DNA of 25,046 nt, from the IMG/VR virus record IMGVR_UViG_3300031834_000043, positions 1-25,046 of that record, one strand, 5' to 3'. How positions within the stretch are numbered: the first letter of the stretch is position 1; the number at the start of each line of letters is the position of its first letter. The translations under genes were made by a program, and so were the position numbers. This document shows, in pieces, positions 3,979 to 18,424 of the stretch. The notes beneath the pieces are model-generated. The model saw only the letters and a list, made by a program, of their open reading frames with translations. It did no database searches and was not told the origin of the DNA. The DNA comes from a virus.

Positions 3979-5345
3979 TTTATAAGCCCCCGCTCTTTAG
4001 CCATTCTATATGCTTCTTCTTGAGATAACCTAGGTTTACCATTTATGAAACTTTCATTGTTAAGGGGTTCATATTTGGGTTGTCCATTTATATTCCCTCT
4101 GAATATAGTTTTAATTCCATCTGGCATATCAAAGGTATCCCCAATATTTTGACCTGTGGGTAATTTTACACCAGTGGCTACTTTAGCTACAAAAGGTTCC
4201 TTTAATGGTTTAGATGCAGGACTAGGTCCGGCTGCACCAGCATTTTCTTGATTCTGACTATATTTTCCAGGTAATCCAGGACCAGCGCGTACAGTAGCGC
4301 TACTGATCAGGTCATCTATATATTTAAGTTTAGTTTGAACAGCTTCAGCCTTAGAACCCCATGAGGGAATAGCTGCATTAGCTTTTTCTTCTGCTTCAGC
4401 ATAACTAAACCCTTGACCAGATAATAAATGAATGATAGCAATTTTAGCGGCAGAAGCATGCGCATCATATACTTGCTTACTAGCAGACTTTAATGTAGTA
4501 CCAACATCTTTAGCTATGTCCAAAGGTACTTTAGATAAAATATCAGCACCCCAGTCACTCGGATTCTTACTAATATCTAAATTAGCTCCACGTAAAGATT
4601 GCTCAATACCTTTGCGCGCATTAGTCAATGACCCAACCAACATACCAGTTTTACCTTGATCTTCTGTAACAGCTACTGGATGCTGTATAAGTTCACCAGT
4701 TTTTATATTAATGGTAGCTGGTACATTAGGATCATAACCCCAAGCAATTTTCTGTTCTTTTGTAGCAGGTTGCATTTGCGTATTATCACCAGTAAATATA
4801 TTCATACTGCCAGCTTTCTTAAGTTCCGCAGCTTTCGCGGCAAACTCAGGTGTTCCCAACTTTAAATGTGGATACATATCAACTACTTCACGGATTAAAT
4901 TTGGCTCTTCACGCAAAGCCGCAGTTTCTTGAGCTTTACCTAAGTCTGTAATACCACTCAAGCCCCTTTGTACTAACAAAGGATTCTTAGTATTTATTAA
5001 TGCGCGTAGGCCACCAAGGTGTTTCTTTATATCGGGGTTAGTCTCGGACTCGTACTGAGCATCTATAGCGGGTTTATAGGCATCTACCAGTTCCTGGGTA
5101 GCTTGCTTTTGCTGATACTTTTCAAGTTTATTAGATAGATAACTACTTGCAAGGTTACCCAGTATTCCTTTTAACACACCGCCTCCGCCCTGTTGTGGTG
5201 CTTGAACAGAAGTATCGGGCAACTGCATATTTGGAGCAGGAGGTAACTGGGGTATTCCGGTTTGTCCTCTATTTTGATTTTGACTAAGGAAGGCCAACAT
5301 TGTGGCTAACCCACGTGTATTATCGGTGTAATCTTCCTCAGCCAT
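3975..5345 (-). CDS. Putative DNA-ejection (internal virion) protein, 456 aa
   Basis: A 456-aa soluble-looking protein. Residues 30-56 are Pro/Gln/Gly-rich and low complexity, followed by helical segments. Residues about 290-350 (AKIAIIHLLSGQGFSYAE, then a Pro, then a long helix with YIDDLI) match the pattern of a helical domain seen in podoviral DNA-transfer proteins, where a G-x-x-F/Y-x-x-x-E core precedes a conserved Pro. The gene sits between a Gly/Ala-rich protein (8-bp overlap ATGGCTGA) and the 808-aa ejection protein (ATGA overlap). The three are therefore likely co-translated and co-packaged. The assignment rests on domain pattern and gene order; the exact role inside the particle is not known. 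Confidence 0.75.
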   Translation of the reverse strand: MAEEDYTDNTRGLATMLAFLSQNQNRGQTGIPQLPPAPNMQLPDTSVQAPQQGGGGVLKGILGNLASSYLSNKLEKYQQKQATQELVDAYKPAIDAQYESETNPDIKKHLGGLRALINTKNPLLVQRGLSGITDLGKAQETAALREEPNLIREVVDMYPHLKLGTPEFAAKAAELKKAGSMNIFTGDNTQMQPATKEQKIAWGYDPNVPATINIKTGELIQHPVAVTEDQGKTGMLVGSLTNARKGIEQSLRGANLDISKNPSDWGADILSKVPLDIAKDVGTTLKSASKQVYDAHASAAKIAIIHLLSGQGFSYAEAEEKANAAIPSWGSKAEAVQTKLKYIDDLISSATVRAGPGLPGKYSQNQENAGAAGPSPASKPLKEPFVAKVATGVKLPTGQNIGDTFDMPDGIKTIFRGNINGQPKYEPLNNESFINGKPRLSQEEAYRMAKERGLIK

Positions 5346-6057
5346 TGCTCTGCCCCATTAATTGTTTCATCAAGTCCATCATATCAGGATTTTTAGATCC
5401 ACCACCTTGTCCTTTCGACATTATGGACTGCATCAACTGTGCCGCGCCTTGTTCACCTTGGACTCCAGTGGGTTGTGGAGTAGAAGCTCCTAGACCAGAC
5501 TTTTTACTCTTACTAAGTAATGCACCTATCGCTGCTAAATCACCACCACCACCACCACCACCACCACCACCACCACCCTCTCCTCCACCACCGCTATTCT
5601 TACCCAAAAGTCCACTTAATAAGCCCCCAGTATTTGCAGCTTCTGTTCCTGCAGCCGCGGCTGGAGCAGCACTAGCAGAGCCACCACCCCAAGTTCCTGG
5701 AAAACCATAAGCTCCAATACCTGTACCAGCTGCCGCATTACCTGCTGTGCCAAGAGTTCCAGTTCCCCCTAAGTTTGCTGCTTGCAAAGCACTAGATAAA
5801 CCAGAACCACCAGTACCCGCTAACCCAGCTGCTTCTGGAGTTACAGCAGATGCCATAGTTGGTATTGCTGCGCCAACAGAACCAGCTAATCCAGAACTTG
5901 CCCCTGCTCCTGAAAGTCCTCCCATTGCAGTACCAGAACCTGCTACTGGAGCACCGATTCCTAAAGCACCCATTAATGAACTAGCGCCACCTGCTACTGC
6001 GCCACCTAGTGCCGATGCGGCACTTCCAATCGCTGCTGCCACTGCTGCAAAACTCAT
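5338..6057 (-). CDS. Gly/Ala-rich virion protein with a 12-residue polyglycine tract
   Basis: This 239-aa protein is made largely of Gly, Ala and Ser. The N-terminal 35 residues are small and hydrophobic and could insert in a membrane. Residues 161-172 are twelve consecutive glycines encoded by twelve identical GGT codons, a perfect trinucleotide repeat at 5541-5576. The C-terminus is more ordinary and helical, with MMDLMKQLM. Composition and location suggest a small ejection/internal virion protein (position of T7 gp14-type proteins), but no specific family motif is visible. It overlaps its neighbours by 4 bp upstream (ATGA) and 8 bp downstream. The composition is unusual enough that homology searches will be dominated by low complexity. 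Confidence 0.75.
   Translation of the reverse strand: MSFAAVAAAIGSAASALGGAVAGGASSLMGALGIGAPVAGSGTAMGGLSGAGASSGLAGSVGAAIPTMASAVTPEAAGLAGTGGSGLSSALQAANLGGTGTLGTAGNAAAGTGIGAYGFPGTWGGGSASAAPAAAAGTEAANTGGLLSGLLGKNSGGGGEGGGGGGGGGGGGDLAAIGALLSKSKKSGLGASTPQPTGVQGEQGAAQLMQSIMSKGQGGGSKNPDMMDLMKQLMGQSNG
5541..5576. repeat. Perfect (CAC)12 trinucleotide microsatellite
   Basis: Twelve uninterrupted CAC units on the plus strand read as GGT glycine codons in the Gly/Ala-rich virion gene. A pure trinucleotide run of this length is prone to slippage in replication. Changes would stay in frame and alter only the length of the polyglycine linker. Confidence 0.95.
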
Positions 6058-12927: not shown

Positions 12928-14328
12928 CTAGAAATCACAATTAATAACTACTTTGGAGGTACCAGTAGGATTGAATGCTGTAGAATTACCTGCTACCAAT
13001 CCAGATGCTACCGTTACGTCAAGATCGGTGCTATTAACTGAAACATGACCTATTCCAATAACCGTTGCAGCCACAGGAGTATAAGAGGAATTAACTAAAT
13101 TATAAGTTGATGTTGCACCAGTTAGCGCTATATCACTGGCAGGTCTCATTGTAGGCACTGTGTGTGGAAAAGAGGTACGAGCTTTTATAGTCTGATAAGC
13201 CATACCTGTAACCCTACAAGCTGTATTAATTACTTGGCAATACCGTTGACACATTGAAAGATATGCGCCATAATCTAAATGATTAAATTCTGTTGCAATG
13301 CTACCTTTCTCCAACTGAACACCAGTTATGCGGAGTATAGCGCTAGTTGTTCCTACTAATGACAAAGCGCCAGTAGCAGAAACAAAATTGCCAGTCTGCC
13401 AAGTGCCATTTGCTGGAGCTGAAAAGGTAACTCCTGCTCCTAAACTAAAATTTACTGAAATACCAACTGTATTTGGTGCTATATTCCAATTTCCACTTTG
13501 ATTGCCAGGTACAGTAATTGTTTGGTATTCCCAGGTATTAATGGCATTGATAACATAGGAAAAAGGAAAACTACGATCAGCTGGATTATTTGTAAAACTG
13601 CCACCATAAGTTCCAGCAATAGTAGACTGTACCCAAAATGAAAGTGTAATAGTACTAGCATCAGATGTCCCAAATGCTAAATCATTTATATTTGTCCCTT
13701 CAATACGTTGCCCCACAGCAAAGAAATCACTAGCCGCTACCGTATAAGCCGATAATGATACCAGGGTTAAAAGGTTAGTGAACCCAGGAAAATTAGTGGC
13801 ATTACCTTGATTAATCGAAAATTTAGAAGCTAACGACAAAGCACTATGCCATCTATCTAAAGAATATGTATTGGTTATTGTTGGTATTATTGTTGCACCA
13901 TCATTTCTTTGGTCAACTTTCATAGCACCATTAATAATGCGATTCTTAAATGAGTTAGCTTGTACACCTGTACAATTTACAAGATTGCCCGTTAATGGTA
14001 TTCCTAAATCACCACCCTGGAATACGGCTTTACCCGCTGGATACGTGCAGATTACATCTTTTGTCCCTGCACTAAAACTAACCTTAGCACCACTTGCAGA
14101 TGAATCTAAAACAGTATTCCTTGATAATAAAGTTCCTGCTAATGTATAAGTACCTATACCTACTTCCCATTCGCCTAAACTTCTATGAATTATGGCATAG
14201 TGTGTAGTATTGGCATTACCTATTACTGAAAAAGCATGATACTTAGTTACAGCACCCAACAACGTAGCACTACCCGTACCAACAACTGATGTAGTTTCTT
14301 TTACTCTGTCTTTTAGTACAAGCGTCAT
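12928..14328 (-). CDS. Receptor-binding / tail fibre protein with jelly-roll-like module
   Basis: The 466-aa product starts with a particle-anchoring segment seen in phage fibre proteins (LKDRVKETTSVVGTG, then YAIIHRSLGEWEVGIGTY, and CTYPAGKA near 90-97). Then comes NRIINGAMKVDQRNDGA (128-144) with SLDRW, leading into a carbohydrate-binding-like beta-sandwich. This ends with ITGVQLEKGSIATEFNHLDYGAYLSMCQRYC (from about 333), a signature of many receptor-binding proteins. The C-terminal 100 residues are a separate Thr/Val-rich domain, probably the tip. It lies upstream of the adaptor. The likely task is recognition of host surface sugars. No diversity-generating repeat was seen next to it. Confidence 0.85.
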   Translation of the reverse strand: MTLVLKDRVKETTSVVGTGSATLLGAVTKYHAFSVIGNANTTHYAIIHRSLGEWEVGIGTYTLAGTLLSRNTVLDSSASGAKVSFSAGTKDVICTYPAGKAVFQGGDLGIPLTGNLVNCTGVQANSFKNRIINGAMKVDQRNDGATIIPTITNTYSLDRWHSALSLASKFSINQGNATNFPGFTNLLTLVSLSAYTVAASDFFAVGQRIEGTNINDLAFGTSDASTITLSFWVQSTIAGTYGGSFTNNPADRSFPFSYVINAINTWEYQTITVPGNQSGNWNIAPNTVGISVNFSLGAGVTFSAPANGTWQTGNFVSATGALSLVGTTSAILRITGVQLEKGSIATEFNHLDYGAYLSMCQRYCQVINTACRVTGMAYQTIKARTSFPHTVPTMRPASDIALTGATSTYNLVNSSYTPVAATVIGIGHVSVNSTDLDVTVASGLVAGNSTAFNPTGTSKVVINCDF

Positions 14329-14338
14329 GGGAGTATCC

Positions 14339-14725
14339 TTATGTTGGTTGATGTGATGTATATGTTAATGAAGGATAATTCAATGTATTGCCAATGAATA
14401 TAGTCTGTCCACTCGTTTCATTTGTAACCCATAATACATTATCATTAATGCTGTCACAGAAAGCAAAACTCATTCCTGCGCCGCCTCCAGATACTGCGGC
14501 ATTTGTATCTTGCTTACCAGAAGCAGTAGTTAAAACTCTTGCTGCTCCAGAAGCACCTGTTATAGTAAAATCACTTGATCCCAGTACGACATGTGATAGT
14601 GTATTAGCTACTACCGTTGCATATGGATCATTCGCGGAATACGTTGAAATAAGTCGTACTTCATTACATTTATTCTTTATTTCAAGTAGACCATTATCTA
14701 AAACTAAAATATTTGCCCATTTCAT
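14339..14725 (-). CDS. Conserved small phage structural protein (beta-rich)
   Basis: A 128-aa protein opening with MKWANILVLDNGLLEIKN, then RLISTYSANDPYATVV and a Gly/Ala-rich stretch, ending in a short strand with SLTYTS. The sequence W-A-x-x-x-L-D-x-x-L-x-x-I-K near the start followed by L-I-S-x-Y is familiar from small phage proteins found beside capsid and tail genes, whose role is undetermined. It starts in an ATGA overlap with the two-TM gene and precedes the receptor-binding fibre by 10 bp. A minor structural or decoration role is likely but not shown. Confidence 0.65.
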   Translation of the reverse strand: MKWANILVLDNGLLEIKNKCNEVRLISTYSANDPYATVVANTLSHVVLGSSDFTITGASGAARVLTTASGKQDTNAAVSGGGAGMSFAFCDSINDNVLWVTNETSGQTIFIGNTLNYPSLTYTSHQPT

Positions 14726-14925
14726 TTTTCTTCCCCATTTTTACCATGAGAGACATATCCACTAATTACACCGATTATATAAATCATTAGATCAAAAATC
14801 ATTTTTTTAGAGTCATCTGGAGAACTTCCTATTTCCCCATAACTTAAATACCATAATGTACCTAATAGCGAGGCACAGAACGTGCCTGTTAGCATTATAA
14901 TAATTATACCATTTACATATTTCAT
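14722..14925 (-). CDS. Two-transmembrane small protein, holin candidate
   Basis: A 67-aa membrane protein with two hydrophobic helices, about residues 6-27 (GIIIIMLTGTFCASLLGTLWYL) and 43-58 (IFDLMIYIIGVISGYV). They are separated by a short polar loop, and a charged tail HGKNGEEK follows. Two TM helices and a charged C-terminus suit class II-type holins, which make the membrane hole for lysis. No endolysin or spanin gene is visible beside it, so the lysis role is tentative; another small virion membrane protein is possible. Start overlaps TAATG with the PASTA/CBM-like gene and the stop overlaps ATGA with the next gene, so it is translated as part of this run. Confidence 0.65.
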   Translation of the reverse strand: MKYVNGIIIIMLTGTFCASLLGTLWYLSYGEIGSSPDDSKKMIFDLMIYIIGVISGYVSHGKNGEEK

Positions 14926-15683
14926 TACATCATATCTTGGCGCTTCAATGATATGTTATCAAGTAAGAAAGATGAGCCATTTCCTTCTAATATTACCCTT
15001 ATCACTATATCAAGCTCAGTTGGATATAGTATAGTATCAAATGCTCCAGGACCACTTATTGTATGTGCAAAATATTTATAAGGTTGAGTTATCGTACCAA
15101 CAATAAATCTAGCATTGTTCCCTGCCCCAGCATTCCAACCTGCTATACTAGCGCCAACTTTAAATGCTTTATTTAAACCTGTTGGAGATATATTAATTTG
15201 CTGCAATAATCCAGCGTATGTATCAGCAGATAGACATCTAAAATACGCTTGTCCAGAGTTCCAAACTACCTGTGATGGAGAGATAGATAAATCTGTCCAT
15301 CCTGATAAATCAGTTGTAAATCCACCATTTACTACCAACTCAGGGAATGGTCCAAATAGAACATTAACAACAGTTCCATGTGATACGGTTGTAGCTGCTA
15401 CTGGACTTTGAGAAGTAGCTAAAGCACTCGTATCACCAAATGCTTGAATACCTAAACCAGCAGTAGACAATGTAGTAGTGGCAGGGCCAAGTCCCATACC
15501 CACAACACTAGGAACACTAATATCTACAACAGCCTTACCTATACCAACTGTATTAAGAATGTTATCCCGCCTATCAGGATTACCAAAAGTAAAGTAATTG
15601 ACACAGCGTTTAAAATTGGCAGGTACAAGTTCTCTAAGTGTTCTATGATGTAAATTTGCCCCTGCCCCTTTCTTATAAGCCAT
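14925..15683 (-). CDS. PASTA-like plus carbohydrate-binding-like decoration/fibre protein
   Basis: A 252-aa protein with two recognisable parts after a basic N-terminus. Residues 57-110 match the PASTA pattern: VPSVVGMGLGPAT, a helix ending TAGL, then SQSPVAATTVSHGTVVNVLF. Residues 115-247 look like a family 4/9-type carbohydrate-binding beta-sandwich, opening with ELVVNGGFTTDLSGWT and closing with FLLDNISLKR. PASTA domains bind peptidoglycan fragments or serve as structural spacers in bacterial proteins. Here it is probably a surface-displayed virion module. It is the last and largest of four PASTA-like genes after the capsid gene. Surface binding is inference. Confidence 0.75.
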   Translation of the reverse strand: MAYKKGAGANLHHRTLRELVPANFKRCVNYFTFGNPDRRDNILNTVGIGKAVVDISVPSVVGMGLGPATTTLSTAGLGIQAFGDTSALATSQSPVAATTVSHGTVVNVLFGPFPELVVNGGFTTDLSGWTDLSISPSQVVWNSGQAYFRCLSADTYAGLLQQINISPTGLNKAFKVGASIAGWNAGAGNNARFIVGTITQPYKYFAHTISGPGAFDTILYPTELDIVIRVILEGNGSSFLLDNISLKRQDMM

Positions 15684-15692
15684 GTCAGTTCC

Positions 15693-16091
15693 TTATGATG
15701 TTAGTGTTAGTAATACAGTTTGATGTAGTTGAGTTTTAGCCGCTGCTGCTGGACTCTGTATAGTAACATTACCTGTAGTCAATGTTACCTTACCAACTGC
15801 CAATCCTTGAGCATTTAGTGTCGCGGTTGCAGCTGCCAATGATGAACCTACTACGTTGGCTACAGTTATTGGTATACAATAAGCACAGTTATCAACCAGA
15901 CCTTCTGGTGTAACAGTATCGTGTCCAGCTTGCCATGCAATATTATATGCACTACCAGAAGGATGTGGATTAGTTCCAGCACCTGTTACAAGTGATTCTC
16001 TACCTTCACACCATGCACGTGCAAGTTCATCTTTTGCTGTCTTTATATCAGTGTGGTTATTGGCCGCACTATGTTTAAATTCACCTGGCAT
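15693..16091 (-). CDS. RMF/CrpP-like motif fused to a PASTA-like domain
   Basis: A 132-aa protein with two parts. Residues 19-58 (AKDELARAWCEGRESLVTG, then NPHPSGSAYNIAWQAGH) follow the A-x-x-x-G-x-x-A...G...NP...W-x-x-G pattern of the small ribosome-modulation-factor/CrpP-like motif often found in phage proteins. Residues 75-132 are PASTA-like (VANVVGSSLAAATATLNAQGL, then QSPAAAA and VLLTLTS). The PASTA part closely resembles that of the 83-aa protein at 16872-17123, sharing VTLTTG and the C-terminal TLTS. The function of the combination is not known; it is probably a virion-associated protein by position. Confidence 0.7.
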   Translation of the reverse strand: MPGEFKHSAANNHTDIKTAKDELARAWCEGRESLVTGAGTNPHPSGSAYNIAWQAGHDTVTPEGLVDNCAYCIPITVANVVGSSLAAATATLNAQGLAVGKVTLTTGNVTIQSPAAAAKTQLHQTVLLTLTS

Positions 16092-16100
16092 AATACACCT

Positions 16101-16439
16101 CTAATGTTTGCCTTGTACCATACACATTTTACCTTCAGTTGATTTTAGAAATCGAGCTATTTCATTAGCTGAAATATCTGCATTACGATTATCTAAATCA
16201 TAACCATCACGTTTTGCTTTTTCATATAAATTCATAGGGATACTAGCAACCAGTCGTCCCCATGTTCCTTCATTACTTCTTGCACCCAAATCCATAATAG
16301 AACCAGGATTTTTACGAAGTTCAGCGTTACGTGCAAGAATCGTGTCCTCTGATGGTTGTGTCTGTTTATGAGCTATTTCATCAATATGATTTAAAAACTC
16401 GGATTTAATAACACCATCATAATGAACTTCTTCACTCAT
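16101..16439 (-). CDS. Conserved hypothetical phage protein (112 aa)
   Basis: The product is a soluble, charged, helical protein. Central features are ILARNAELRKNPGSIMDL and GRLVASIPMNLYEKAKRDGYDL; the end is IARFLKSTEGKMCMVQGK. The N-A-E-L-R-K-N-P block and the final I-x-x-F-L-x-S-x-x-G pattern recur in phage proteins of unknown role located near capsid genes. The start is placed at the ATG 16437-16439 because AGGTGG sits five bases before it; a GTG three codons further up lies in that ribosome site and is less likely. Unlike its neighbours on both sides it has no PASTA domain. Not otherwise recognised. Confidence 0.7.
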   Translation of the reverse strand: MSEEVHYDGVIKSEFLNHIDEIAHKQTQPSEDTILARNAELRKNPGSIMDLGARSNEGTWGRLVASIPMNLYEKAKRDGYDLDNRNADISANEIARFLKSTEGKMCMVQGKH

Positions 16440-16441
16440 TA

Positions 16442-16684
16442 TTACCACCTATCCATATTAACTATGACAGTGGAGCCTTTACCAACTGAAGCTGCTGCGG
16501 CTGGGACTTGACTTGCTACTCCAGGAGCAACTGCTATGCCACCACTTAGAGCACCACCAAGCGCATTGCTATAAAGTATACCTTGTGGTACTAAGCCTGC
16601 TGTACGACAAGATGACTCAACAGCGGCTCCAGCTAAACCAAATAGATCTGGTACTGTTGCTAATGTATCAAATGCACTGGCCAT
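16442..16684 (-). CDS. Single-PASTA-domain small protein (80 aa)
   Basis: Almost the whole 80-aa protein is one PASTA-like domain: VPDLFGLAGAAVESSCRTAGL (11-31), a loop, then VASQVPAAAASVGKGSTVIVNM (56-77). Among the four in this cassette this copy is closest to the bacterial consensus (V-P-D-L-x-G, A-G-L, Q-x-P-A, V-x-x-G-S-x-V). There is no signal peptide or membrane segment, so it is made in the cytoplasm and probably joins the particle. It lies 2 bp from both neighbours. Binding to peptidoglycan or a capsid-decorating role are both possible; neither is shown. Confidence 0.75.
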   Translation of the reverse strand: MASAFDTLATVPDLFGLAGAAVESSCRTAGLVPQGILYSNALGGALSGGIAVAPGVASQVPAAAASVGKGSTVIVNMDRW

Positions 16685-16686
16685 AA

Positions 16687-16863
16687 TTACACCGGAACAA
16701 TATAAGCATATAAATTACTAACTTCCGCTGGTGTAGCCAGACCAACATCTTGAGGATCAATCTGTCCTTTGGAAAGATTAATTGTTACTGCTGATATATT
16801 CCGAACCTCAATAAAGTCAGTTGGTTTTTTAATAGGTTTAGTTGTTTCTGTTGATGCTGCCAT
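16687..16863 (-). CDS. 58-aa conserved small phage protein
   Basis: The start is an ATG with AGG eight bases upstream; the stop lies 2 bp before the next ATG. The product begins with a Thr/Lys-rich leader, then FIEVRNISAVTINLSKGQI and LATPAEVSNLYAYIV. The V-x-N-I-S-x-x-x-I-N-L-S-x-G core followed by a G-x-A-T-x-A-E motif is familiar from small phage proteins next to capsid genes. It fits exactly between the two PASTA-like genes at 16442 and 16872 and is on the same strand, so it is very likely real. Function unknown. Confidence 0.7.
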   Translation of the reverse strand: MAASTETTKPIKKPTDFIEVRNISAVTINLSKGQIDPQDVGLATPAEVSNLYAYIVPV

Positions 16864-16871
16864 TTTTATAC

Positions 16872-17123
16872 CTATGATGTTAATGTCATTGCTACAGCAT
16901 TACCATCCAGGTTCCAAGTTCCCCCTAATGGATTCTGTCTAGTAACTACACCAGTTGTCAATGTAACTACCCCCTTTACCAAACCAACTGTTGTAATTGC
17001 TGTTGCAGCGTTTGATTCAGTCATACCAATAATATCAGGAGTTAATACCCGTCCTGCTTGTTGATGGTATGTAGGTACTGAAATATAAATTTCATACCCT
17101 GTACTATCTTTTATACCTGCCAT
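16872..17123 (-). CDS. Single-PASTA-domain small protein (83 aa)
   Basis: After a short N-terminal strand region with YEIYISVPTY, residues 27-83 form a PASTA-like domain: LTPDIIGMTESNAATAITTVGL, then VTLTTGVVTRQNPLGG and VAMTLTS. It is first of the small genes after the major capsid gene and so may be made in large amount. Its PASTA part is clearly related to that of the 132-aa protein at 15693-16091. No export signal is present. A capsid decoration or head-fibre role is attractive but inferred. Confidence 0.7.
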   Translation of the reverse strand: MAGIKDSTGYEIYISVPTYHQQAGRVLTPDIIGMTESNAATAITTVGLVKGVVTLTTGVVTRQNPLGGTWNLDGNAVAMTLTS

Positions 17124-17221: not shown

Positions 17222-18256
17222 TTATGCAGTAACAGCCAATAATGGGTTAATGTCACCTATAATGCCATGTGATTTCTCAGTATTACAAATCAAAGTCCAA
17301 TCAACAGACATTTGTTTTCTTTCTGATAAACCAGTTCTTGCCAAATCTTCTGTACGATAACCTTTAAGATAGGATAGCGCCAAGTAAGTTGGATCAATGA
17401 TAAATACATCATAGCATTGAGTTGAACCAGAATCCACGTGACTTTGTTGAAGACGATTTGGAACTAATTTCAAAGTACCAAAATCTGTTACAAATACATT
17501 CACAGAACCAAGGGCAGTTGCTTGTTCAGAAGATTTGCCTTGATCACTCATAAGAGTAGCAACACGCGCGGAAGAAGTGAACAGGTATTCAGAAAATTTA
17601 CGAATGACACCAGGGCCTGACATCATAATAGTAGCATCGCCACCTTGTTGATAAACTGATTGAACAGTGTCACGAACAAGTGTTTCAGTTAATGCTCTGG
17701 CTGCTGTAGGTGTACGAGCAACTGTTAAACCAGTAGATGTGCTAAAACCACCTGCTGTTCCCCCTGCTGCTGCATTGGTTACCAACCAAGAAGGAAGGCC
17801 ACCTGCTTTACCCGCGACGGTATTGCCGTCATCAGATACAGATGCTTGATTGACCAATGCGATAGCATCAACGTCACGGCGTAACTCTTGCTGTCTACGC
17901 ATGACTTGGTAAGAAGTTTCACGAGTTCTACCAATTACATCAGAAACATCTGCTCTGAATGATACTTGGACTACTTTTTGGGAAATCTGATGGTGGTTAC
18001 CAACGCGAGCACCCAATACAGTATTATTACCAGAGGCATCAGCGCCATCAACAACAGCATTAGAGATATTTGGTGGTGATAAGGCATCGAGTGTCCATTC
18101 CTTATATTCTTGTTTTGATGATTCAGTACCGATAGCATCAGTCAAAGGTAATGGAATTTTTGAAATATCCCAAATCTGATTCATGACATCTTCACGAATT
18201 AAACCACCACGACCAACTGCTTTTAAATCTGCTGAATCAAGATTTGTACTTGACAT
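17222..18256 (-). CDS. Major capsid protein, SU10/DUF5309 type
   Basis: The 344-aa product forms the icosahedral shell. Diagnostic stretches near the N-terminus are REDVMNQIWDISKIPLPLTDAIG followed by YKEWTLDAL. Then comes QKVVQVSFRADVSDVIGR with the long spine-helix-like RQQELRRDVDAIALVNQ, and later a P-domain with MSGPGVIRKFSEYL. These match the HK97-fold capsid class of SU10-like podoviruses (DUF5309). The start is set at the ATG 18254-18256, preceded by GGAG at seven bases; a TTG four codons upstream overlaps that ribosome site and is rejected. It follows the scaffold gene after a 168-bp leader, the longest gap inside the operon apart from the terL-portal interval, which may help its high expression. 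Confidence 0.9.
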   Translation of the reverse strand: MSSTNLDSADLKAVGRGGLIREDVMNQIWDISKIPLPLTDAIGTESSKQEYKEWTLDALSPPNISNAVVDGADASGNNTVLGARVGNHHQISQKVVQVSFRADVSDVIGRTRETSYQVMRRQQELRRDVDAIALVNQASVSDDGNTVAGKAGGLPSWLVTNAAAGGTAGGFSTSTGLTVARTPTAARALTETLVRDTVQSVYQQGGDATIMMSGPGVIRKFSEYLFTSSARVATLMSDQGKSSEQATALGSVNVFVTDFGTLKLVPNRLQQSHVDSGSTQCYDVFIIDPTYLALSYLKGYRTEDLARTGLSERKQMSVDWTLICNTEKSHGIIGDINPLLAVTA

Positions 18257-18424
18257 GATTTTCTCCAATTTACAAAATTAAATTTGCTCAAATGAGCGGT
18301 CTATTTTGCAATTTACTGTTTATCTCAGTATTGGATAAATTCATAATTACTTAGATGCTTGCTAAATTAGTTCATCTAGTTGTAGGAATATCGTACTTAT
18401 TAAAAATAAATTTGCTTATTCTCT
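18257..18424 (-). promoter_or_regulatory. 168-bp leader upstream of the capsid gene with two hairpins
   Basis: No gene is visible here. Two inverted repeats stand out: TAGATG at 18352-18357 with CATCTA at 18373-18378 (15-nt loop containing a smaller CTAA/TTAG), and the palindrome GCTCAAATGAGC at 18286-18297, about 30 bases before the capsid start. In a tightly packed operon this gap suggests an mRNA leader, processing site or internal promoter. I could not find a convincing -35/-10 pair, and neither hairpin has a terminator-like T run. Confidence 0.45.

Follow-up and report, generated by a model that had tools for sequence, protein, structure and literature searches.

PASTA-domain genes beside the capsid gene of LUZ24/SU10-type podoviruses as a possible Hoc-like cassette for virion-surface display

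We analysed a stretch of 25,046 bases (IMG/VR record IMGVR_UViG_3300031834_000043; hereafter the window) from an uncultured virus, in which four genes for proteins with a PASTA domain follow the major capsid gene. The late genes of the window lie on the minus strand in the podovirus order, namely small terminase, large terminase, portal, scaffold and major capsid protein. The capsid gene (17222–18268; translation probably begins at the ATG at 18256) encodes a protein of the SU10_MCP type (Pfam PF17236, 2.8e-65; phrog_1328, 1.6e-60). It is followed by the PASTA block, a head–tail adaptor gene (phrog_2941), tail-fibre-like genes and the gene for a stabilisation/nozzle protein (phrog_3287). The window thus carries, in order, the SU10_MCP, portal, adaptor and stabilisation proteins that define the structural module of LUZ24/SU10-type podoviruses and, judged by these sequences, belongs to a short-tailed phage whose capsid protein is of this type. 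The nearest annotated relatives of the capsid protein belong to a Thiohalocapsa phage (38% identity), Rhizobium phages, the Methylophilales phage Venkman, the Sinorhizobium phage phiM5 and LUZ24-type Pseudomonas phages; the hosts of the isolated relatives are Gram-negative bacteria.

The four PASTA genes, all on the minus strand, are here called A to D in their order from the capsid gene. Gene A (16872–17123) encodes a single-PASTA protein of 83 residues (PASTA at about 16878–17048), and its orthologue in a related locus, L006, is 60% identical. Gene B (16442–16684) encodes 80 residues with a PASTA domain (about 16454–16660) of a long-hairpin subtype. The product of gene C (15693–16091; 132 residues) consists of a module that we call N2 (15876–16037), resembling the RMF family, followed by PASTA (15699–15869). 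That of gene D (14925–15683; 252 residues) starts with another module, N1 (15531–15617), and continues with PASTA (15351–15521) and a C-terminal domain without an assigned fold (14928–15350). Two minus-strand genes without PASTA are interleaved with these four. One (16687–16863) encodes a 58-residue protein of the 'LSKGQIDPQDVGLATPAEV' type, which gave no family match in Pfam or PHROG searches and is recognised by position and sequence in L006, L007, L008, L012 and L050. The other (16101–16448) encodes a 115-residue phrog_3982 protein (1.5e-7), kept at the same position across LUZ24-type podoviruses (the Thiohalocapsa phage, Venkman, RHph_N3_2, phiM5, Bjorn and phiGT1). The slot leads into a tail-fibre gene (12928–14328; phrog_4492, 3.4e-38). 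Adjoining D, an open reading frame of 67 residues (14722–14925) has two hydrophobic stretches and looks holin-like by eye.

A first-pass annotation, made from the letters alone, had described four PASTA-like proteins at this place, and each of them proved to hold one Pfam PASTA domain. Against PF03793, for which the curated cut-off is 23.2 bits, C (E = 9.7e-8, 32.3 bits) and A (4.2e-5, 23.9 bits) scored above this value, D was at it (6.9e-5, 23.2 bits) and B slightly under it (6.5e-4, 20.1 bits), the last probably being explained by a 13-residue insert in the hairpin. A six-frame search of the window returned exactly these four matches and none besides. We also observed that BLASTP aligned the four proteins with one another (41% identity for C–D and 34% for A–C over the PASTA part), and that a profile built from 18 phage PASTA domains found PknB in the PDB at 1.9e-8, while reversed or shuffled sequence gave no match below E = 0.01 to the hidden Markov model of the phage domains. 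AlphaFold models of C and D, made with alignments of relatives, have one helix packed on a three-stranded sheet; the predicted local distance difference test (pLDDT) score of the PASTA part was 83–89 in C (74 for the whole model) and 94–98 in D. In Foldseek searches the top 29 PDB matches of each model were PASTA-containing chains, from PBP1, PBP2x, PknB, PrkC and PonA2. Structure prediction, which the first-pass annotation had proposed as a check on these proteins, therefore returned the PASTA fold for C and D and not a different one. We concluded that the PASTA resemblance is a real homology and not a composition effect of sequence rich in T, S, A and G.

No kinase or transpeptidase domain was found in the four proteins by Pfam, no PHROG family matched A–D as PASTA, and no transmembrane stretch was seen by eye. 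The export signals that the first-pass annotation had reported as absent were not visible to us either, again by eye. When 50,697 phage records were searched by tblastn with C, a two-PASTA protein and an N1–PASTA protein, nothing matched, so that isolated phages lack close relatives of the three. The C-terminal domain of D was considered as a known carbohydrate-binding module; it has no such Pfam match, and the model is unreliable in this part (pLDDT below 50).

Next, we asked where such genes occur. Searches with a capsid-protein alignment as query yielded 143 loci, the window and the Thiohalocapsa phage included, of which 98 had distinct 3′ ends of the capsid gene. All 65 PASTA matches in these 98 representatives fell within 0–5 kb downstream of the capsid gene and on its strand; none was found elsewhere in them, although a similar amount of upstream sequence had been searched. 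At least one PASTA gene was present in 44 of the 79 loci that could be assessed (one gene in 39, two in 2 and four in 3), and none in the other 35, some of which have capsid proteins 60–70% identical. The position of the slot is thus fixed. The four-gene state, found in the window, L006 and L007, is shared, yet as unusual as had been supposed at first reading. In a tree of the domains each window gene paired with its L006 counterpart, and the PASTA domains borne by N1 and by N2 were intermixed, with the limit that the domains are short and support values were not relied on. B-type domains formed a group of their own, with members from L006, L007, L009, L046, L066 and L070. The same variable slot holds, in L007 (+4381 to +5799 after the capsid gene) and L008 (+4445 to +5788), open reading frames with an apparent signal peptide that resemble pectate lyases. 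The capsid-gene match of L070 (5327–6878) spans about 1.55 kb, some 0.5 kb beyond its relatives, which suggests an insertion.

The relatives also revealed the two modules that precede PASTA. N1 is a stretch of about 35 residues ('KRNVNxFTxGNPDRxxxVLNTVGIGK') found N-terminal to PASTA not only in D but also in dozens of relatives. For most relatives with PASTA, the sole such protein is an N1–PASTA one of 90 residues with no tip. In L046, L066 and L070 N1 is joined to large domains that match phrog_5939 ('tail protein'), in L008 to another domain, and in L007 (4498–7293; 931 residues) to a seven-bladed propeller (PF10282, 5.2e-30), two PASTA domains and leucine-rich repeats. N2, of about 55 residues ('AYCEGRxAxxxGxxxNPHxxGsxxxxAWxxGH...DCCA'), is N-terminal to PASTA in C. 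It precedes two PASTA domains in L008 and L066, three in L100, a PKD domain in L045 (PKD_4, 5.8e-6; by sequence also in L044 and L049), a He_PIG Ig domain in L060 (1.2e-6; by sequence also in L133) and other beta-type domains in L040, L046, L052 and L070; in many relatives, including the Thiohalocapsa phage, it stands alone. A standalone RMF-like N2 was also seen 4.7–5.7 kb upstream of the capsid gene in eight loci (L024, L027, L030, L031, L034, L035, L038 and L041), where the downstream slot holds N1–PASTA only. The two halves of N2 are apparently separated in L043, L048 and L071 by an inserted domain some 100 residues long. For L043 and L048 this domain has a match to phrog_8757 ('virion structural protein'); we rejected the match as a sign of virion-bound N2, as it sits in the inserted domain and outside N2. 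Weak Pfam matches of N2 to RMF (PF04957) were obtained for 6 of 16 members (best E = 2.3e-4), and the scores inspected (C, 13.8; L044, 16.8; L045, 19.0; L060, 13.1 bits) did not reach the cut-off of 27.9 bits. Foldseek aligned C to a chain of a hibernating ribosome (9iot_y; template modelling score 0.60 by target, root-mean-square deviation 1.7 over 39 columns), a weak match with an E-value of 6.7.

We then compared the modules between loci. L005 and L074, at 99.9% and 99.4% DNA identity, represent the same virus as the window and were not counted as separate evidence of recombination. When the window is compared with L006, the capsid proteins are 86% identical and the PASTA domains of D 51% in protein sequence, while the DNA past the end of PASTA is nearly identical; the sharp breakpoint in D coincides with the end of the PASTA domain. 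In a set of 30 single N1–PASTA genes belonging to the two main N1 types, each N1 type was paired with both PASTA types, so that all four combinations were seen. The capsid proteins of L014 and L011 are 99% identical and their N1 DNA 62%, whereas for L014 and L030 the values are 93% and 95%, respectively. On these sequence comparisons, the modules have recombined.

Taken together, we consider it fairly probable that the PASTA genes are part of a Hoc-like, exchangeable cassette for display on the virion surface, in the slot between the major capsid and head–tail adaptor genes of LUZ24/SU10-type podoviruses. N1 and N2 would attach the proteins to the particle, at the head shell or the neck, and the C-terminal domain would face outwards. 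PASTA, single or in tandem, would act as a spacer or as a weak adhesion domain of broad specificity, like the Ig-type domains of T4 Hoc; it would tune where the particle sticks and would not serve as a specific sensor of peptidoglycan. In D it would be a stalk that presents a further exchangeable tip. Four observations point to the virion surface: the genes lie in a fixed position after the capsid gene, export signals were not visible by eye, PASTA is exchanged for PKD and Ig domains, and in phiM5 the products of the two genes immediately following the capsid gene (one is a GDSL hydrolase) carry the annotation 'detected in phage particle proteome'. The first-pass annotation had proposed a virion-surface system next to the capsid gene that touches muropeptides. 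The adjacency stands, the surface role is probable from synteny, the swapping with PKD/Ig-type domains and the phiM5 slot proteins, and the muropeptide contact is not supported, as discussed below. It is also quite possible, as a more tentative extension, that this podovirus lineage turned PASTA into a 'variable domain' of the virion surface. RMF-like (N2) or N1 bases would then carry one to three PASTA domains, or PKD, Ig, propeller or leucine-rich repeat domains, swapped by recombination at the module borders, and would supply changeable adhesins independent of the tail fibre.

Several points weigh against such a cassette. The slot proteins of phiM5 are analogues by position and not homologues of N1, N2 or PASTA; a comparison of the phiM5 virion proteins with these modules found no similarity. 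We infer the anchor role of N1 and N2 from their place in the chain, and the location of the PASTA, N1 and N2 proteins in the virion is likewise deduced. N1 varies even where the capsid proteins are 99% identical, which would be odd for a pure capsid anchor, and A and B are without a known anchor module. Finally, the L006 contig ends about 110 bases away from the breakpoint, so that a chimeric assembly is possible; on the other hand, two genomes that share sequence would interrupt an assembly at the same place.

A variant of display that differs in the site on the particle, and which we regard as possible though short of probable, is that these proteins belong to tail-proximal appendages (adaptor, branch proteins and receptor-binding tips) and not to a head coat, the D-type proteins being short tail fibres or spikes with PASTA as the stalk. 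The phrog_5939 'tail protein' matches of N1 siblings point in this direction, as do the run of the slot into the tail-fibre gene and the C-terminal domain of D, which looks exchanged by recombination in the manner of receptor-binding tips. Such appendages agree less well with the tip-less N1–PASTA protein being alone in most PASTA-bearing relatives and with the frequent absence of a further domain from N2 proteins.

Small single-domain proteins encoded straight after the capsid gene are commonly cement proteins, and A and B contain little beyond PASTA, which would suit a purely shell-stabilising role without any ligand or adhesion. We consider this unlikely, given that PASTA genes are missing from the 35 loci mentioned above, some of them at 60–70% capsid identity, that their number ranges from 0 to 4, and that swaps to unrelated folds would be hard to tolerate in a load-bearing cement.

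The first-pass annotation had pictured head decorations or fibres in contact with muropeptides or debris from cells, here taken as binding by the PASTA domains. The homology to PknB-type PASTA is real, and ligands of PASTA domains in PrkC, PknB and PBP2x include muropeptide, lipid II and beta-lactam (PMC3601408, PMC6428115); PrkC binds diaminopimelate (DAP) muropeptide via Arg500 (PMC3601408). However, charged residues make up on average 5% of the phage PASTA domains compared with 16–24% of three PknB/PrkC stretches. Among 59 phage domains, 35 are without Arg, and in 11 of them Lys is missing as well; no column shows a conserved Arg, and positive charge exceeds about one third of the sequences in no column. 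In addition, N2 can carry a PKD or Ig domain in place of PASTA, and in the Gram-negative hosts of the isolated relatives an outer membrane covers the peptidoglycan, which is therefore not the first surface met. Judged from these sequences, peptidoglycan as the ligand of PASTA is not supported here, and we think this account quite improbable.

We find it very improbable that the RMF-like N2 acts on host ribosomes, with its PASTA or PKD fusions serving inside the cell, since, against the weak RMF and 9iot_y matches described above, the fusion partners of N2 (PKD, He_PIG and PASTA) are of extracellular type, N2 lies in the late structural operon adjoining the capsid gene, and in L043, L048 and L071 it apparently has a domain inserted in its midst.

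Elsewhere in the window, a plus-strand open reading frame opposite to the structural genes (202–1266) resembles ATP-dependent DNA ligase, and another (5338–6057) is rich in glycine and alanine, with a long glycine run and a GC content raised to 49%.

Among known systems, the PknB/PrkC kinases and the PBP2x/PBP1 proteins share the PASTA fold with detectable sequence homology. The phage proteins differ from them in not being membrane proteins and in lying in virus structural operons, and their mostly single PASTA domains have a shortened hairpin, are almost uncharged and lack a conserved Arg. The best BFVD matches of C are proteins of uncultured Caudovirales phages annotated, by name only, as 'PASTA_pknB domain containing protein' (A0A6J5NY54, A0A6J5KNS9 and others). 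N2 may have the two-helix shape of RMF (PF04957) and RMF-like phage proteins, and its glycine/aromatic pattern is similar to theirs; it differs from RMF in its scores below the Pfam cut-off, where inspected, and in its fusion to extracellular-type domains. The phiM5_13 and phiM5_14 (GDSL hydrolase) genes occupy the same position, from a homologous capsid gene to the tubular tail A gene, and their products are annotated as present in particles; unlike the window proteins, they bear no similarity to PASTA, N1 or N2.

The closest parallel is T4 Hoc, which has a conserved capsid-binding domain and variable Ig-like domains, and which is fused to a GDSL lipase in phage PG7 (PMC10385173). Phage-head display of exchangeable Ig-like domains is known and is tied to mucus and surface adhesion, and in gut phages PKD, BACON and Ig-like domains are displayed as adhesins (PMC13370021). 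We found no relevant paper on PASTA in virions in the open-access literature; as far as could be found, the present case would be a Hoc-like modular display with a fold apparently undescribed in that role. If true, it would extend the display folds beyond Ig-like domains and dissociate PASTA from cell-wall sensing, and the two candidate attachment modules, one of them RMF-like, would be testable tags for such systems in uncultured viruses; a PASTA match in a virus would then not always have to mean a peptidoglycan binder. Neither C nor D gave a Pfam or PHROG match relating it to the capsid-binding domain of Hoc. Hoc attaches mostly by a C-terminal domain and carries Ig-like domains, whereas the candidate anchors described here are N-terminal with no sequence relation to that of Hoc, and PASTA is the usual exchangeable domain. 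In both, a conserved attachment domain (here the candidate modules) bears a variable number of exchangeable beta-rich domains, as seen for N2 with one to three PASTA domains, PKD or He_PIG; Hoc-like systems, too, may have several genes per phage and enzyme fusions, and a role in the clustering and dispersal of particles has been proposed for them (PMC10385173).

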